DNA of 64,000 nucleotides from an uncultured Hyphomicrobiales bacterium (GTDB lineage Bacteria; Pseudomonadota; Alphaproteobacteria; Rhizobiales; Beijerinckiaceae): contig CAINED010000042.1 in NCBI GenBank assembly GCA_903847605.1, positions 1 to 64,000 of the forward strand. Direction: 5' to 3'. This document shows, in pieces, positions 44,085 through 54,246 of this stretch; the stretch's first letter is position 1, and each line of letters starts with the position of its first letter. Position numbers and translations under genes: made by a program. The notes under the pieces are model-generated. The model saw only the letters and a program-made list of their open reading frames with translations, was not told the origin of the DNA and searched no databases.

Positions 44085-44939
44085 TCAGCGCGAACGGTCG
44101 TAAGCGCCGAGCCCGGGCCTGTAGCTCTTCTCGTCGAGGAATTGAGACATGCCCTTTTGCGCGCCGCTTTCGGGATCGGTAAACTTGTTCTGGTCCGACT
44201 TGGCGGAGAGATATTCCGCCGCCATGTCCCAGCTCATGTCGCGCACGTAGTGATAGGCGACCTTGCACGAGCGCAGCACGTGCGGGTTCTTCTTCATCAA
44301 ATTGTCGGCGATGGCCTTTACCTTCGCCATCAACTGGTCCTGTGGGACGGAGAAGGTGACGAGGCCGTATTGCTCGGCTTCCTTTCCGTTAAACGTATCG
44401 CCGGAAATTATGTAATACATCGCCTTGCGCGGTGTCATCGTATAGGTCGCGGACTTGGTAACGATGCCGGCGGGTATGATGCCCCAGTTGATCTCTGACA
44501 TGCCGAAGCTCGCTTCATCCGACGCTACCGCAATGTCGCAACCGACGAGCACCTGGAAGGCGCCGCCGAAGCACCAGCCGTTCACCATCGCGATGGTCGG
44601 CTTGTTGTAATAAAGCAGCTTGCGCCACTGCCAGCGCGCATTGTTGGTATGCAGACGCTCGCGGTCGACGGGATGCCATTTCGCCGGCTCGCGGAAATAT
44701 TCCTTGAGATCCTGCCCCGCCGAAAAGCTGTCGCCAGAGCCGGTGATGACGATCACCCTGGCGCGGTCGTCCTTTTCCAGCGCGTCGAGAATCGCGTTGG
44801 CGTCGTTGACGATACCCGGGCTGATGCAGTTGCGCTTTTCCGGCCGGTTCAGCGAGACGAAGGCAATGCCGTCGCGGATTTCGCAGACGACGTCCTTGCC
44901 GCCGGGCAGAGCGGGATCGTGTTTGAATTGCTGGCTCAT
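44085..44939 (-). CDS. enoyl-CoA hydratase/isomerase family, p-hydroxycinnamoyl-CoA hydratase/lyase (HCHL)-like
   Basis: FVSLNRPEKRNCISPG, SAGQDLKEYFRE, YNKPTIAMVNGWCFGGAFQVLVGCDIAVASDEASFGMSEINWGIIPAG, QKGMSQFLDEKSYRPGL; resembles HCHL from recall. Confidence 0.82.
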   Translation of the reverse strand: MSQQFKHDPALPGGKDVVCEIRDGIAFVSLNRPEKRNCISPGIVNDANAILDALEKDDRARVIVITGSGDSFSAGQDLKEYFREPAKWHPVDRERLHTNNARWQWRKLLYYNKPTIAMVNGWCFGGAFQVLVGCDIAVASDEASFGMSEINWGIIPAGIVTKSATYTMTPRKAMYYIISGDTFNGKEAEQYGLVTFSVPQDQLMAKVKAIADNLMKKNPHVLRSCKVAYHYVRDMSWDMAAEYLSAKSDQNKFTDPESGAQKGMSQFLDEKSYRPGLGAYDRSR

Positions 44940-44961: not shown

Positions 44962-46470
44962 TTACTTCAACAGATGACCGAATTTCTGGCGCGCCAGGCG
45001 GCGTATCTCTGGCGACGGCTGATTCACTTTCGGATATTGATCCTTCCACCAGAACGGCTTGCAGGCATCGATGATGGCGCGGCTGTTGGTGAAGTCGCCC
45101 TTCGCTTTGCGCTCCGGTTCGATGCGCGGATCCAGCGGCGTCGACCATGCATTGGTGATGATGTCGATGGATGTCGCCGGATCGGAGCGCGTCAGCACCG
45201 CCCAGATGACTTCTTCGAGATTGGACACATCGATATCTTCATCGACGACGATGACATAACGGCCGGCGTAAGCGCCTGCATGGCACATGGCGGCGACGTG
45301 ACCGGCCTGTTTCGCATGGCCGCCGTAGCGCTGCTTGATCGCGACGACCAGCAGCAGGCGCGAAACGCCGACTTCATGTGCCCATGCGGCCGTCACATCG
45401 GGCACACCGGCCTTCGTGATGTTCTCGCGCACGATGGCAGAACGCGTCAACGCACGATAGCGGCCGATCTCGTCGGGCGGGCGCTGCGGCGCGCAGCCCA
45501 GAAGGATCGGGTTGTTGCGGTGATAGATCGCCTTGATGTCCATGACGGGTTCATCACGGACATCCGAGCCATAGTAGCCGAACCACTCACCGAACGGACC
45601 TTCTGGCTTAACATTGCCGGGCTGCACAAAGCCTTCGATCACGATTTCTGCATTGGCCGGTACCGGCAGGCCGGTGATCGGCGCATGCACGAGATCGACG
45701 GGCTCGCCACGAATGCCGCCTATAACTTCATATTCGGAAATGCCGTGCGGGATTTCGCTCGACGACATGAGAAACGACATCGGATCGCAGCCGACGACGA
45801 TGGCGACCGGCATGGGTTCGCCGCGCTTCTCGTATTTGTCGCGCATGACGCGCCCATGCTTGCCGGGCGAGATGTAGAAACCGACAGATTTCTCGTCATG
45901 GATCATCACGCGATAGGTGCCGCAATTGATCCAGCCGTCGTCGGGATCGCGCGTGACGTTGAAACTGCCGGTGCCGATATAGCGTCCGCCGTCTTCCGGA
46001 TGCCACATGGGCGTCGGGAATTTGGTGATGTCGACATCCTCGCCCTTGATGACATTCTCGAAGATCGGGCCATCGTTCACGTAGCGCGGCTGGATGCGCT
46101 TCAGGTCGCTCATGTAATGAATGCGAAAGGCTTCGCTGAGCTGCAATTTGTCGAGATGATCGGGGAAACCGAGCGTCATCTTCTGCCTGACGCCGCCGAA
46201 GAAATTCACCAGCACCTTGCTACCGGGAATCGTGCCGGGGATATCCTCGAAAATCACGCAGGGTGCGGTTTCCTCGTGCAGGATGACTTCTGACGCCATG
46301 CCTATGTCTTCCTGCCAGGAAAGACCCTGCACGCGTCGCACCTCGCCGAGCTTGTCGGCCTCGCCGATCCATTCCCTGAGATCGCGGTATTTGAGATCCG
46401 GCGTCAGCGCGGCGATATCGACATCTGCCGGCCCATTTTTATTGCCCTCTGCAGCCATCATTTCCTCCAA
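44962..46470 (-). CDS. UbiD-family (prFMN-dependent) decarboxylase
   Basis: FPTPMWHPEDGGRYIGTGSFNVTRDPDDGWINCGTYRVMIHDEKSVG; GPFGEWFGYYG; VVDEDIDVSNLEEVIWAVLTRSDP. Confidence 0.93.
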   Translation of the reverse strand: MEEMMAAEGNKNGPADVDIAALTPDLKYRDLREWIGEADKLGEVRRVQGLSWQEDIGMASEVILHEETAPCVIFEDIPGTIPGSKVLVNFFGGVRQKMTLGFPDHLDKLQLSEAFRIHYMSDLKRIQPRYVNDGPIFENVIKGEDVDITKFPTPMWHPEDGGRYIGTGSFNVTRDPDDGWINCGTYRVMIHDEKSVGFYISPGKHGRVMRDKYEKRGEPMPVAIVVGCDPMSFLMSSSEIPHGISEYEVIGGIRGEPVDLVHAPITGLPVPANAEIVIEGFVQPGNVKPEGPFGEWFGYYGSDVRDEPVMDIKAIYHRNNPILLGCAPQRPPDEIGRYRALTRSAIVRENITKAGVPDVTAAWAHEVGVSRLLLVVAIKQRYGGHAKQAGHVAAMCHAGAYAGRYVIVVDEDIDVSNLEEVIWAVLTRSDPATSIDIITNAWSTPLDPRIEPERKAKGDFTNSRAIIDACKPFWWKDQYPKVNQPSPEIRRLARQKFGHLLK

Positions 46471-46474
46471 TGAA

Positions 46475-47365
46475 TTATTTTAGCAGGCCGAGGCTGCGAT
46501 AGGCAGACAGCGCGCCTTCGTGAAGTTTCACGCCGCCGAATTCCAGCGCCGACGCGCCTTCCGTCTTGAGTGGTTCGAACAGTTTTTCCATGCCACGATA
46601 GAGCGGGTTGAGGCTCACGAGTTCGGCTGTGTCCTCGGCCATCGTACGCGCAACGGTTTCGACGGCGCGCGCCTCCTGTCGCGCATGGGTCACAACGACG
46701 TTGACGACAGCGGCCTGCGAAACATCTTCATTGAGCGCGCGCAACTGCCCTTTCTCCATCGTGACAGGCCGATACCAGGGGACGGCAGCCAGCACCTTTT
46801 CGAGGTCGCCTGGCGCATAGGGAAGGACGCGCAGATCGCAGCGCTGGTCGAGCGACGTCATCTCCGGATTGGGAATCGGGCATTGCAGTTGCGCATCGAC
46901 ATCGCCTGCATCAAGCGAACGGCCGCCCTCCGCAAAGTGCTGGTAAATTGGGACGATATCGTTAAAGGTCATGCCCAGCGCCCCGAATATCGTATGTGCA
47001 TGTTGCGTCATGCCGCTGGTCTTCGCGCCGGTGCAAACGCGCTTGCCGCGCAGGTCGGCGACCGTCTTGATGGGCGAATCCGCGCGTACTATGAAGAATA
47101 GCGGCCCGGCATTCGCCGGCGCGACCATCCGCAGGTCGATCGGCCTGGAGAAGGGCGCTTGTCCGAGACGGGCGCGTCCGATCCAGTTCGAGGCCATGAA
47201 GCCGAAATCGAGGTCCCCGTCTTCCAGCCGCTGCGCATTCTCCGTGCTGGCGGCCATTGCGGTGAGAATTTCGACCGGTCCGGCACCGCGCTTTTCGAGG
47301 ATGGCTTTCAGGGCTAGGCCCTGATGAAGAAATGTGCTGTTCGGCTCGGCCGTTCCGATGCGCAT
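46475..47365 (-). CDS. TAXI-type TRAP solute-binding protein homologue lacking a signal peptide
   Basis: MRIGTAEPNSTFLHQGLALKAILEKRG...GDLDFGFMASNWIGRA...LRGKRVCTGAKTSGMTQHAHTIFGALG; in-frame TAG at 47377-47375 directly upstream of ATG. Confidence 0.78.
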   Translation of the reverse strand: MRIGTAEPNSTFLHQGLALKAILEKRGAGPVEILTAMAASTENAQRLEDGDLDFGFMASNWIGRARLGQAPFSRPIDLRMVAPANAGPLFFIVRADSPIKTVADLRGKRVCTGAKTSGMTQHAHTIFGALGMTFNDIVPIYQHFAEGGRSLDAGDVDAQLQCPIPNPEMTSLDQRCDLRVLPYAPGDLEKVLAAVPWYRPVTMEKGQLRALNEDVSQAAVVNVVVTHARQEARAVETVARTMAEDTAELVSLNPLYRGMEKLFEPLKTEGASALEFGGVKLHEGALSAYRSLGLLK

Positions 47366-47524
47366 ATTCGCTCCCTAGTGCGGACGCTTTTGGCCCGCTT
47401 GCCGTCTTGTCTCACAGGAAGCATGGCCGCGCAATCTCGCGAGCCGGGGCGCGTGGACGGCGCGGCGGACGGGTGCTAGGAACGGGCCCAACGGCAATAT
47501 AACAATCACAGGGAATGGAAACGC

Positions 47525-49615
47525 ATGTCTTCAGGGCCGCGCTATCGCCTCGGCGTCGATGTCGGCGGTACGCATACCGATCTCGTGCTGCTCGATGTCG
47601 GGAGCGGCGAATTGATGGTCGAGAAAGTCGCGAGCACGCCGGCCAACCCGGCCCTCGGCGTGCTCGATGGCGTCAATCGCTTCATCGCGCGCGGCATTGC
47701 ACCCGGCGATATCGGTTTCTTCGCGCACGGCACCACGATCACGACCAACGCTCTGCTTGAAATGCGCGGCGCGAAGGTCGGCCTGCTGATCACCAAAGGT
47801 TTTCGCGCCGTGCAGGAAGTGCAGATGCAGGCGCGCGACACCAATCTCTTCGATTACTTCTTTTCGCGTCCCCAGCCCATCGCGCCGCAGAGCATGACGC
47901 GTGAAATTCCTGAAAGATCCGACTATCGCGGCAACGTCCTCGTCCCGCTCGACCATGACGCCGTGCGCAAGGCGGCCCGCGAGCTTGCCGGGGCAGGCGC
48001 GGAATCGATTGCGGTCAACTATCTTTTCTCCTTCATGAATCCCGCGCACGAAGAAGAAACGCGCCGCATCGTGACAGAAGAATGCCCGGGCGTTCATGTT
48101 TCGCTCTCGAGCGAAGTGTTGCCGCGCATTCGCGAATGGCCGCGCCTGTCAACGACATTGCTGAATGCCTATCTCGAACCCGTGCTCGTTCGCTATATCG
48201 CGCATCTCAATCGTGGCCTCGACGATACCGGCGTTTCGACGCCACAGCGCTTCCTCATGCAGTCGAACGGCGGCGTCATGCCGTTTGCCGCGACAATGGC
48301 AGGTGGCCGTACCGTGCACACGCTCTTCTCGGGACCTGCAGCGGGCGCGCAGGCCGCCGCATGGCTTGCCGAAGAAGCGAAGACCGGCCTCGTCACCCTC
48401 GACATGGGTGGAACCAGCGCTGATATCGCCTTCATCGAGGGCGGCGCGCCGCTGGAAACGACGGAGAGCATCATTGCGCGGCGGCAACTCGATGTCCCCG
48501 CTCTCGACATGACGACGATTTCCGCTGGCGGCGGATCGATTGCCGGCGTCGATGGAGGCGGATTCCTGACGGTGGGCCCCCAAAGCGCTGGCGCCGATCC
48601 TGGCCCCGCCTGTTACGGACGCGGCGGCGTACGCCCGACCGTGACCGACGCCGATCTCGTCTGCGGCTATCTCAATCCCGAGTATTTCCTGGGCGGCAAG
48701 CAGAAGCTCGATGTCGAGGCTGCGCGCGCAGCGCTTGAAACCAATGTTGCCGGTCCCCTGGGCCTGAACGTGCGTGAAGCCGCGGTTGGCATCAGGCGCA
48801 TTGTCGACATGCGCATGGCTGACGAAGTGCGTGTCTTCGCTGCCAAGCGCGGCGTCGATCTCACATCCTTCACGCTTTTGCCCTTCGGTGGCGCTGGCGC
48901 GGTGCATGCGGCCGCCGTTGCCGACGAGTTGAACATGAACCGCATTCTCGTGCCGCCTCGTCCCGGCGCATTCTCGGCGCTTGGCCTGCTCTGCACCGAC
49001 ATCGTTCACGATTACATCCGCTCCGAATTGATGCCGATGGCCGAACTCACCGCGGATCATGCGGAAGCGATCTTCGACGAACTTGAAGCCCGCGCTCTGC
49101 AGGACCTTCTGGCCGAAGGAATGAAGCCCGAGGACGCGCGCTATCTGCGCGAACTCGATCTGCGTTACACCGGGCAGGGCTACGAATTGCGCACGCCCCT
49201 CGACGGACTTTACGCGAATTCTCTCGATTCAAAATCCCTGCAGGCGGCGCGTACGCGCTTCGATGAGCGCCATCGCCAGATTCATGGCCACGCCGCTGCC
49301 GACAGGCCCGTCGAGGTCGTCAGCTATCGCGTGCGCCTGCGCGTCGATGCGCCGAAATACAAGCCTGTGCCTGCTTCGCCACCCGCGCGCGCGCGAGACA
49401 TCTCCTCGGCTGCCAAAGGCAGCCGCGATGTGTGGTTTGAGGCGGCCGAATCGACGACGGCGATTGTTTACGAACGTGACGGGCTCGACATCGGAGCGAC
49501 AATCGCCGGCCCGGCCATCGTTGAACAGTTCGACGCAACGACGATTGTACCGCCGGGCTGGACTGGACGTGTCGATGCGCTTCGCAATCTTGTTCTGGTA
49601 AAGAAGGGAGCCTGA
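47525..49615 (+). CDS. hyuA: hydantoinase/oxoprolinase-family subunit A
   Basis: RLGVDVGGTHTDLVLLD, FAHGTTITTNALLE, LDMGGTSADIAFIEGG. Confidence 0.93.
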   Translation: MSSGPRYRLGVDVGGTHTDLVLLDVGSGELMVEKVASTPANPALGVLDGVNRFIARGIAPGDIGFFAHGTTITTNALLEMRGAKVGLLITKGFRAVQEVQMQARDTNLFDYFFSRPQPIAPQSMTREIPERSDYRGNVLVPLDHDAVRKAARELAGAGAESIAVNYLFSFMNPAHEEETRRIVTEECPGVHVSLSSEVLPRIREWPRLSTTLLNAYLEPVLVRYIAHLNRGLDDTGVSTPQRFLMQSNGGVMPFAATMAGGRTVHTLFSGPAAGAQAAAWLAEEAKTGLVTLDMGGTSADIAFIEGGAPLETTESIIARRQLDVPALDMTTISAGGGSIAGVDGGGFLTVGPQSAGADPGPACYGRGGVRPTVTDADLVCGYLNPEYFLGGKQKLDVEAARAALETNVAGPLGLNVREAAVGIRRIVDMRMADEVRVFAAKRGVDLTSFTLLPFGGAGAVHAAAVADELNMNRILVPPRPGAFSALGLLCTDIVHDYIRSELMPMAELTADHAEAIFDELEARALQDLLAEGMKPEDARYLRELDLRYTGQGYELRTPLDGLYANSLDSKSLQAARTRFDERHRQIHGHAAADRPVEVVSYRVRLRVDAPKYKPVPASPPARARDISSAAKGSRDVWFEAAESTTAIVYERDGLDIGATIAGPAIVEQFDATTIVPPGWTGRVDALRNLVLVKKGA

Positions 49616-49618
49616 GCC

Positions 49619-51322
49619 GTGGCAACGCAACAGGCGGGCAAGTCTCTTGATGCCATCACCATCCAGATCCTGCGCAACAAGATCGCCAGTCTCGTGGAAG
49701 AAATGCATTATCATTTCTACCGCTCGGGCTATTCGACGATCATAAGGGAGTCTCGCGATTTCTCCTGCGTGGTATTGGACAGGAACGGCCGGCTGATCGT
49801 CGCGCCCCCGATGTTTTTTCACGCGCCAGTCTATCGTCATCTCGTGCGCCGGACGCTCGAACTTTATAACAGCCGGGATGGCGAGCCCGGCGACATCGAG
49901 GACGGCGACGTTTTCGTCTGCAACCATCCGTATGAGGGCGGTTTGCCGCATGTGTCCGATATGGCCTTCGTCTCGCCTGTTTTCTCGAATGGAAAGATCG
50001 TCGCTTTCACTGGTTCCATTGCGCACAAGGCTGATGTCGGCGGTACCAATCCGGGCTCGACCTCTCCCAATGCCACGGAGATCTTTCAGGAAGGCCTGCT
50101 CCTGCCGCCCATGAAGATCTGGCAGCGCGGCCAGCTTTTGCAGGATGTCGAGCGCATCATTCTTGCCAATACGCGCCAGCCGGTTCTCGTGCGCGGCGAC
50201 ATGAATGCGCAGATCGCCGTGACGCACGACGGCGCGATGCGAGTCAAGGAACTGGCGAAACGCTTCGGCGCGCAGGTGCTGATGGACGCCTTTGCGGCCA
50301 TTCTCGACGGCGCCGCCAATGAATTGCGGCAGCGGATTTTAGCCTTGCCGCATGGTTCATCGTCGGCGGAAGGTTATATCGACAACGATGGCGTCACCAT
50401 CGACAAGCCCATCAAGCTCGCCGTCACGATCACGATCGAAAATGGCGTCGCTGAGTTCGACTTCTCCGCATCCGATCCGCAGACGCGCGGCCCCATGAAC
50501 CTGCGTCCCTCGATGATCGAAGCCTGCGTCTTCTATGCGCTGATCGGCAGCCTTGGCCCCAATCTTCATTTCAACGACGGCATGAGCGATTGCATAAGGC
50601 TGAAGTTCAAGGACAAGACGATTACCAATGCATCCGCGCCGGCATCGGTCTCCAATTACCAACAGGTTAATCTCAAACTCGTCGATGTGCTTCTTGAGGC
50701 CATGGCGCATTTCAATCCTTCGCGCGCCATCGCCAATGCAGGTTCATCGAGCGCGCTGGGAATATTCTGGACGAAGGGGTGGCCCGGGCAATCGACCATG
50801 CAATATGAAATTCTCGGCTCCGCTTACGGCGGCGGCGAGAAACACGATGGCGCGTCGGGCACGGCCTGCCATCTCAGCAATCTGCATGTAACGCCCATCG
50901 AAATCCTCGAATCCGAATATCCCTGCCGCATTCATCAGTTCGGACTTGTTCCGGACTCAGGTGGCGCTGGCCATTGGCGCGGCGGACTCAGCATGATCCG
51001 GGAATATGAACTCCTGGAAGATGCGACGGTTGTGCGCCGCTTCGACAAGAGCAAACATCCACCCAAGGGACTTGATGGCGGACAAAACGGGCAGGGCGCA
51101 AAATTCGCCATCAATCCCGGCACGCCGCAGGAATATATCTCGCCTGCGTCGGGCAAATGGGAATTGAGGAAAGGCGACCGCTTCATACTGCAAACCGCAG
51201 CCGGCGGCGGCTACGGCAAGCCAGCGCTGCGCGAACCCGTCGATGTCATCAAAGATATCCGCGAAGGCTATGTCACAAAAGATACGGCCGAAAGAATTTA
51301 CGACGTCAAACCGGAGTTTTGA
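49619..51322 (+). CDS. hyuB: hydantoinase B/oxoprolinase-family subunit B
   Basis: LDAITIQILRNKIASLVEEMHYHFYRSGYSTIIRESRDFSC ... SAYGGGEKHDGASG ... QTAAGGGYGKP. Confidence 0.93.
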   Translation: MATQQAGKSLDAITIQILRNKIASLVEEMHYHFYRSGYSTIIRESRDFSCVVLDRNGRLIVAPPMFFHAPVYRHLVRRTLELYNSRDGEPGDIEDGDVFVCNHPYEGGLPHVSDMAFVSPVFSNGKIVAFTGSIAHKADVGGTNPGSTSPNATEIFQEGLLLPPMKIWQRGQLLQDVERIILANTRQPVLVRGDMNAQIAVTHDGAMRVKELAKRFGAQVLMDAFAAILDGAANELRQRILALPHGSSSAEGYIDNDGVTIDKPIKLAVTITIENGVAEFDFSASDPQTRGPMNLRPSMIEACVFYALIGSLGPNLHFNDGMSDCIRLKFKDKTITNASAPASVSNYQQVNLKLVDVLLEAMAHFNPSRAIANAGSSSALGIFWTKGWPGQSTMQYEILGSAYGGGEKHDGASGTACHLSNLHVTPIEILESEYPCRIHQFGLVPDSGGAGHWRGGLSMIREYELLEDATVVRRFDKSKHPPKGLDGGQNGQGAKFAINPGTPQEYISPASGKWELRKGDRFILQTAAGGGYGKPALREPVDVIKDIREGYVTKDTAERIYDVKPEF

Positions 51323-51328
51323 ATTCAA

Positions 51329-52150
51329 ATGGCGAAGGAAAAGATCGGTATTATTGGCGCGGGCCGCATGGGCCAGCCGATGGTCAAGCACTTGCTGAAA
51401 CATGGCTTTGATGTCACCGCAGTCGATATCAGCAAGGACAATATCGAGAAATGCCGCGCCATGGGCGCGAAGATCGCGGGTCAGCCAAAAGATCTCGGCG
51501 ATTGCAGTTTCATCATTCTCGGCGTCGGCTACGACGGCGAAGTCAACGAAGTCGTGCTTGGTGAAAATGGCGTGTTGCAGGCGCTGAAACCCGGCAGCAT
51601 CATAGCCGTATCGTCCACGGTATCGCCTGATACAGTCAAGAACATCGATGCCAGGGCGCGAGAAAAGGGCTGCGACGTGCTCGATGCGCCGATTTGCCGG
51701 GGACGCTGGTTTGCCGATGAAGGCAAGCTGTTGGCGCTTGTCGGCGGCCGCGATGAAATCGTGGCGCGCGGGCGCGACGTCTATTCCTGCTTCTGCTCGG
51801 ACATTTCCCATCTCGGCGATGTCGGCCACGGGCAGGTCGGCAAGGCCATGAACAATCTCATGCTCTGGGTCACGAGCATCGGGCTCATCGAAGCCGGCCG
51901 CGTCGCGGAGTCGACAGGCATCGATCTCGTCAAGTTGCGCGACGCCTTGATGATGAGTTCAGGCAAGTCACAGGCGCTGGAAGACTGGGATCAGACCTCC
52001 TTCACCTGGGCCTTGAAGGACATGCAGATCGTCATGCAGATGGCCGACAAGGCCAATCTCTCGCTGCCACTCGCTGGCGCGATCAAGGAAATGGTGAAGG
52101 AAGCACGCCGGGTGAAGGCGACCAACCCGCCAAAGTGGACGGGAAAGTAA
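51329..52150 (+). CDS. NAD(P)-dependent oxidoreductase, 3-hydroxyisobutyrate dehydrogenase family
   Basis: IGIIGAGRMGQPMVKHLLKHGFDVTAVD; DAPICRG; GHGQVGKAMNN catalytic Lys. Confidence 0.92.
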   Translation: MAKEKIGIIGAGRMGQPMVKHLLKHGFDVTAVDISKDNIEKCRAMGAKIAGQPKDLGDCSFIILGVGYDGEVNEVVLGENGVLQALKPGSIIAVSSTVSPDTVKNIDARAREKGCDVLDAPICRGRWFADEGKLLALVGGRDEIVARGRDVYSCFCSDISHLGDVGHGQVGKAMNNLMLWVTSIGLIEAGRVAESTGIDLVKLRDALMMSSGKSQALEDWDQTSFTWALKDMQIVMQMADKANLSLPLAGAIKEMVKEARRVKATNPPKWTGK

Positions 52151-53605: not shown

Positions 53606-54133
53606 TCACGCCTCTTCCAGCACCTTGTCCTTCAGTTTGCGGAAGCGGAAGCGTTCGATCTGGTCGAGATCGGTGCCGGTGACGCGTATCACCCAGCAGG
53701 TCTCCGGATGTTCCGTCGAATGAATGAAGCCGGGGCCATAGGCCTTGGTATCGCCGCCGCGCAGGTCGTATTCGGCGGATTTTTTTAGCACCGCGCCGTC
53801 CTCGCTCTCGGGGTTGGTGCGCACATATTCGCGCATGCGGGTCGCGCCGTTGATATTGCCGTAAATGGCCCAAGATGCGCCGTGGCTGTGCGGCGTGCCA
53901 CGTTTGCCGCCTTCCTGCACATGGGCGAGCACATAATAGTCGAGGTCGGGGTCGTGATAGAGTTCGCGCTTGCCGGCCGGAGTGTCCGCTGAAAACGTCG
54001 CCTTTACGAAGGCGTCGTTGCGCAACAGGCCCGACAATTTCGCCGCCACGGCGTCCAGACGGGAATGGATCGAGCCCTCGCCCTTCAGAATCGCGCTCGC
54101 ATCCCCGCAGAATTCCTGCAAACCATAGGCCAT
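53606..54133 (-). CDS. cupin-fold, cysteine-dioxygenase-like metal-binding protein
   Basis: GTPHSHGASWAIYGNINGATRMREY and GPGFIHSTEHPETCWVIRVTG; start MAYGLQEFCG with SD GGAGG. Confidence 0.65.
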   Translation of the reverse strand: MAYGLQEFCGDASAILKGEGSIHSRLDAVAAKLSGLLRNDAFVKATFSADTPAGKRELYHDPDLDYYVLAHVQEGGKRGTPHSHGASWAIYGNINGATRMREYVRTNPESEDGAVLKKSAEYDLRGGDTKAYGPGFIHSTEHPETCWVIRVTGTDLDQIERFRFRKLKDKVLEEA

Positions 54134-54246
54134 CGCTACCTCCTCATTTTTCTCGCTCAGGATAGCGCGCCCTTGCCGCAGGCGGAAGGGAGTTGCATAG
54201 GACGGGACGATCCGGGAAAATCCCAAAAACAAGAACGGAGGAAAAT

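Follow-up and report, generated by a model that had tools for sequence, protein, structure and literature searches.

The window, by which we mean the whole stretch of 64,000 nucleotides that was analysed, carries on its minus strand an operon that begins with a TAXI-type gene and continues with genes for a UbiD-family decarboxylase and a p-hydroxycinnamoyl-CoA hydratase/lyase (HCHL). A divergent HydA gene is followed by HydB and an NAD-binding protein gene (Table 1). The divergent intergenic region was scanned for a promoter or terminator, and none was found.

Table 1. Features around the TAXI gene, in positions of the window
Feature	Position	Strand	Remarks
Leaderless TAXI-fold protein	46475..47365, stop codon included (ATG 47365, TAA 46477-46475)	(-)	TIGR02122 from residue 1; AlphaFold2; Foldseek
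In-frame TAG, three codons 5' of the TAXI ATG	47375..47377	(-)	Leaves no room for an N-terminal extension
Ribosome-binding site AGGGAG, 5 nt before the TAXI ATG	47371..47376	(-)	Kept in L038 and L039
UbiD-family decarboxylase, next operon gene	44962..46458, stop 44964-44962	(-)	EGPFGE motif; start most likely at ATG 46458
p-Hydroxycinnamoyl-CoA hydratase/lyase (HCHL), third gene	44085..44939	(-)	NF006588, 375 bits vs cut-off 276; 2j5i, E 7e-87
HydA (hydantoinase/oxoprolinase A type), divergent	47525..49615	(+)	Best NCBIfam match caprolactamase alpha, below cut-off
HydB (hydantoinase/oxoprolinase B type)	49619..51322	(+)	Profile matches
3-Hydroxyisobutyrate-dehydrogenase-type NAD-binding protein	51329..52150	(+)	Beside HydB also in L039, L040, L082, L085
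Cupin-like protein, no Pfam match	53606..54232	(-)	HSHG...H motifs; ORF from first possible start

The names UbiD and HCHL, already given in a sequence-only reading of this DNA, proved correct by profile and structure matches. The distance of 4 nt between the TAXI and ubiD genes given there has to be revised, since it relies on a TTG (46470) that overlaps the Shine-Dalgarno sequence. The ATG is most likely the true ubiD start; it has GGAGG at 5 nt and leaves a gap of 16 nt after the TAXI stop codon. Subunits of caprolactamase and of acetophenone carboxylase are similar to HydA/HydB, at scores that stay below the cut-offs. The cupin-like protein recurs in 13 leaderless-TAXI loci and is probably another member of the TAXI pathway. 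The hint of an aromatic pathway, for the window and close relatives, comes from HCHL and UbiD. The genome of the window (5.3 Mb) contains nine UbiD paralogues at 9 loci, a rich set of prFMN-type decarboxylases.

The TAXI gene encodes 296 amino acids with the N-terminus MRIGTAEPNSTFLHQG. The protein matches TIGR02122 with 139.9 bits (cut-off 84.35, E 8e-41), its residue 1 corresponding to position 32 of 320 in the profile, and the match to PF16868 spans residues 3-290. Only the leader is therefore missing; the domain is complete and begins at the first beta-strand. Between the in-frame TAG and the ATG lie the codons GGA GCG AAT. The sequence-only reading had held that no N-terminal export signal can be encoded here, and the TAG confirmed this.

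The upstream DNA was compared with that of L038 and L039, in which the TAXI proteins are 83-84% identical to that of the window. The ribosome-binding site is conserved in both, and farther upstream there are frame-breaking indels and stops of their own; a hydrophobic run was looked for in this upstream DNA and is not present. The dN/dS of the window gene against these two is about 0.09, which indicates that the gene is under selection, and values across longer distances are 0.17-0.25. A TAXI pseudogene was ruled out by these ratios. In the window itself, a hydrophobic run (VIVILPLGPFLA; 47410-47510, minus strand) stands in the TAXI frame beyond the TAG, roughly 35-50 codons 5' of the ATG. Since it is absent in close relatives, it is probably due to chance, and the lack of a leader cannot be put down to a simple sequencing error. 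Such an error, hiding a signal sequence, had been raised in the earlier reading; it was ruled out, as was a hidden start, by the 49 leaderless homologues described below and by the unconserved upstream DNA. One TAXI copy elsewhere (L041, G303:C172) has internal stops close to a contig end, which point to gene decay or else to a fault in the assembly.

The homologues came from a genome scan, which gave 35 loci, and from a search within the same family, which gave 24 genomes with E below 1e-50. All 49 homologues with a readable start (45-84% identity) begin at the same point as the window protein, with N-termini of the form MRIGTAE... or M(T/A/V)(L/I/F)RIGTSE.... They belong to Alphaproteobacteria, Binatia/"Delta" and one Vicinamibacteria MAG. 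Signal peptides and anchors were called by a hydropathy window and by inspection. An export signal (Sec, Tat or lipoprotein), as expected of a TAXI-TRAP binding protein, is missing in the window protein and in all 49; weak upstream hydrophobic runs in five of them (10-aa mean 1.5-1.8) are not conserved. The TAXI homologues at 37% identity or less, including two paralogues in the genome of the window, have a signal peptide, and each of the 36 other TAXI proteins in a wider set has a hydrophobic signal peptide or membrane anchor. Orthologues with a signal peptide at the same locus were searched for as possible counter-evidence, and none was found.

The trees placed all leaderless sequences together (FastTree 0.63, UFBoot 89) and closest to exported TAXIs from the same genus, with UFBoot 100 for both sets combined. 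Since the leaderless clade is nested inside exported TAXIs, the leader was lost. TIGR02122 is matched by 46 of 46 clade members, and 32 columns are invariant among 46 homologues. The leaderless form is thus a trait of the clade and not an artefact. No leaderless TAXI was found in 353 genomes from other genera of the family, and samples of about 400 genomes each from the order and the phylum returned the window's own copy only. The clade is therefore rare outside its own genus and the MAGs found; it nonetheless recurs in Binatia/"Deltaproteobacteria" and further MAGs. A search for plasmid relatives of the protein gave none at 1e-20.

According to published work, TAXI-TRAP systems were always found with a fused DctQM gene (PMC5812351), and one exception, a lipoprotein that works with GltS, has been described (PMC12344293). 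No such gene (TRAP_fused) adjoins the window TAXI. For a wider comparison, profiles were built from the loci and run on all ORFs of 52 leaderless and 20 exported control loci. TRAP_fused was near 0/52 leaderless loci and near 18/20 controls (Fisher p 5e-15). Exported TAXI paralogues of the window's own genome, on contigs C29 and C49, stand directly before TRAP_fused. Another exported paralogue of this genome (L163, G000:C79:6708-7592) has no TRAP permease nearby and lies amid several Bug-type binding-protein genes. At leaderless loci, an exported Bug-type gene overlaps the TAXI start in L043 and L050, and lies just upstream in L046, L080, L084 and L087.

The same comparison showed what stands in place of the permease. 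A UbiD-type or HydA/HydB-type gene was near 27/52 leaderless loci vs 0/20 exported controls (p 2e-5); about half of the leaderless loci, some with short flanks, have neither in reach. The order TAXI-UbiD on one strand is seen in the window and in L038, L039, L040, L046, L057, L074, L080 and L084. It had been proposed to check orthologues for a leaderless start beside ubiD, and this start was indeed found with UbiD adjoining in eight relatives, where the UbiD orthologue is 79-90% identical to that of the window. TAXI-HydA-HydB on one strand is seen in L073, L075, L078, L079, L082, L083, L085 and L086, plus L081, and UbiD is divergent in three of these (L075, L078, L079). Except in L056 and L058, the UbiDs linked to TAXI cluster closely, with 75-90% identity to that of the window, and stand apart from the other eight UbiDs of its genome.

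We also compared 44 genomes of the same genus, 23 with and 21 without a leaderless TAXI, and counted orthologues at 80% identity or more for UbiD and 75% or more for HydA. The UbiD orthologue was present in 17/23 of the former and 0/21 of the latter (p 2e-7), and HydA in 21/23 and 5/21 (p 7e-6); these p values overstate independence, owing to the kinship of the genomes, many of which are MAGs. The orthologues lie on a contig separate from that of the TAXI gene in three genomes for UbiD (G318, G228, G119) and in five for HydA (G236, G313, G181, G278, G338). The link is therefore not one of gene order alone. Strict co-occurrence of TAXI and UbiD was not found: every genome with the UbiD orthologue also has the leaderless TAXI (17/17), and TAXI occurs without this orthologue in 6/23 genomes, some of them incomplete. 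Two genomes that are 95-100% complete, G249 and G263, have the leaderless TAXI without the UbiD orthologue. The idea of a dedicated UbiD subunit is weakened by the half of leaderless loci with neither UbiD nor HydAB; since leaderless TAXIs extend beyond the loci linked to UbiD, TAXI is unlikely to be such a subunit.

In L057 (G372), UbiD is 87% identical and the gene order is much as in the window, and the TAXI protein comes from another leaderless lineage (UFBoot 100 with L051/L059). These facts suggest that the slot stays filled by a leaderless TAXI, as if the protein had been replaced in place.

Other gene contents were also observed. Seven leaderless loci (L040, L042, L044, L045, L047, L048, L074) encode arylmalonate-decarboxylase-like proteins (PF17645, about 245 aa), in two copies in L040 and L074, and these are paired with exported TctC-like binding proteins. 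Some MAGs of Binatia type or related to it (L061, L063, L065 and L066) encode the leaderless TAXI close to a nitrile-hydratase-alpha-like protein, joined in part of them by YcaO; these look like peptide natural-product clusters.

The AlphaFold2 model of the window TAXI (pLDDT 96.4) is a single two-lobed domain with no extra domain. A direct transcription regulator was rejected on this ground, as the model has no DNA-binding or effector part. Foldseek placed VcGluP first (9ibo/8s4j, TM 0.81), further TAXI structures next, and after these ABC binding proteins, along with THI5, at about 0.5. In VcGluP, glutamate is bound by Tyr45, Ser75, Gln93 and Glu125 among others, of which Tyr45 and Gln93 matter most (PMC11574862). 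Correspondence with the clade was taken from a sequence alignment. The determinants Tyr45, Gln93 and Glu125, which define the glutamate subgroup only, are absent from the leaderless clade, being replaced by F12 (50/50), A58 (47/50) and G87 (50/50), and the carboxylate-binding Ser75 is kept as S40 in 49/50. Exported TAXIs have mostly Tyr, Ser, Gln or Leu, and Glu or Asn at these four sites. An acidic residue (E7/D, at the position of VcGluP Ser40), N85, Q159, Q161 and N166 hardly vary among the clade members. Judged from the alignment, the amino-group contacts of glutamate appear to be gone and the carboxylate contact retained, which suggests one shared, non-amino carboxylate ligand. That the pocket is near-invariant across loci with differing neighbours argues against a UbiD-specific ligand.

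We therefore prefer, with a probability of about 0.48, a tentative reading in which the protein is a cytoplasmic TAXI-fold carboxylate binder that was freed from TRAP and acts in a UbiD/HydAB catabolic module. A TAXI solute-binding protein would have lost its signal peptide and become a soluble cytoplasmic protein that no longer works for a TRAP permease. Its old venus-flytrap cleft would bind a carboxylate without the alpha-amino group of glutamate. Its place of action would be the cytoplasm, within a catabolic module that also contains one particular UbiD decarboxylase and hydantoinase/oxoprolinase-type HydA/HydB, and it might open and close on a pathway compound, either capturing it and handing it over or serving as a signal. 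The lineage-wide loss of the export tag, the company of CO2-removing enzymes and the lack of a transporter indicate that the protein was probably given a new metabolic job. Stand-alone cytosolic binders have few precedents, and many one-domain proteins of this fold in the cytosol are enzymes; both points count against this reading. The sequence-only reading had suggested an intracellular role in (de)carboxylation. Its predicted cytosolic place and the (de)carboxylation link are supported by the leaderless clade, the absence of TRAP and the co-occurrence with UbiD/HydAB; its UbiD chaperone or partner role is unsupported, because about half of the loci have no UbiD/HydAB in reach and several share an operon with HydA/HydB rather than UbiD.

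THI5, MqnA/MqnD and 4,5-dihydroxyphthalate decarboxylase are enzymes on related periplasmic-binding folds. The protein could likewise itself catalyse a step of the UbiD/HydAB pathway, such as decarboxylation, dehydration or isomerisation, on the TAXI fold. This is somewhat unlikely in our judgement, although the gene stands alone in many differing catabolic clusters, THI5 enzymes are among the Foldseek matches, and the near-invariant polar residues, among which Q15 and H122 also count, lie in several cases in the cleft and are mostly missing from exported TAXIs. The best structure and sequence matches are all TAXI binders at TM about 0.8, as against about 0.5 for THI5, and the window protein showed no recognisable catalytic motif. 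Within the genus, moreover, TAXI is mostly more divergent (typically 57-64% identity) than UbiD (80-91%) and HydA (75-87%). It is somewhat unlikely, too, that the leaderless proteins form a new cytosolic enzyme family descended from TAXI receptors, with an unrecognised step (e.g. decarboxylation or ring-opening isomerisation) between the HydA/HydB and the prFMN-dependent UbiD reactions. In the literature searched, no cytosolic enzyme from the TAXI branch was found.

The protein might also sit in the cytosol as a sensor or allosteric subunit, docking directly onto UbiD or HydA/HydB and controlling their activity through its ligand; this would fit the operons shared with UbiD (the window and eight loci) and with HydA/HydB (eight loci). 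We consider it improbable, given the many leaderless loci with neither enzyme and the two nearly complete genomes without the UbiD orthologue; since UbiD and HydA/HydB are unrelated families, one shared docking face is unlikely. It is very improbable that the protein is still extracytoplasmic, through an upstream start masked by a sequencing error or a non-classical exit with a neighbouring exported Bug-type protein. The hydrophobic run before the ATG and the Bug genes that overlap or abut the TAXI gene in L043, L050, L087 and L046 could be read in this way, but the Bug proteins have their own signal peptides, and the homologues and the upstream DNA of L038/L039, with its conserved ribosome-binding site, show no leader. 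The internal stops in one related MAG recall a decayed paralogue carried by chance, an explanation that the low dN/dS and the invariant columns make scarcely credible for the window gene.

Both the name and the annotation of TAXI proteins tie them to TRAP transporters. In the present lineage as a whole, the fold has been retained, export signal, permease and glutamate pocket have been lost, and the occurrence of the protein goes hand in hand with that of one UbiD decarboxylase. Since automatic annotation labels these proteins as transport proteins, their real role has been overlooked. On the carboxylate-binder reading, they would offer a clear and testable example of how a transport receptor was taken into cytoplasmic metabolism. 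A literature search for leaderless TAXI proteins, or for TAXI with UbiD, found no report, most subscription journals being outside its scope.

Among known systems, VcGluP/VC0430 (PDB 8s4j, TM 0.81) and TTHA1157 (PDB 1us4, TM 0.78) share with the window TAXI the whole domain, the fold and, in the cleft, a carboxylate-binding Ser and Gly. Unlike them, the window protein has no signal peptide and no TRAP_fused nearby, has Phe/Ala/Gly in place of Tyr45/Gln93/Glu125, and carries an acidic residue at the position of Ser40. BP0403, the TAXI-GltS protein of Bordetella pertussis (PMC12344293), is likewise a TAXI without a TRAP permease; it is, however, a dimeric lipoprotein with an extra N-terminal domain that works with GltS outside the membrane, whereas the window protein is single-domain and leaderless. 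Cytosolic single-domain proteins that match solute-binding profiles are a recognised class (PMC9602780), and resemble the window TAXI in having no leader and in their metabolic roles. THI5, MqnA and 4,5-dihydroxyphthalate decarboxylase belong to other branches of the fold than TAXI. Finally, the arylmalonate decarboxylase clusters with orphan TctC/Bug or TRAP proteins (PMC4996985) are, as here, proteobacterial decarboxylase loci rich in binding-protein genes, and an AMDase-like gene is likewise contained in several leaderless-TAXI loci. The receptors of those clusters are described as periplasmic, whereas the TAXI proteins here are leaderless and the enzymes are of the UbiD and HydAB type.
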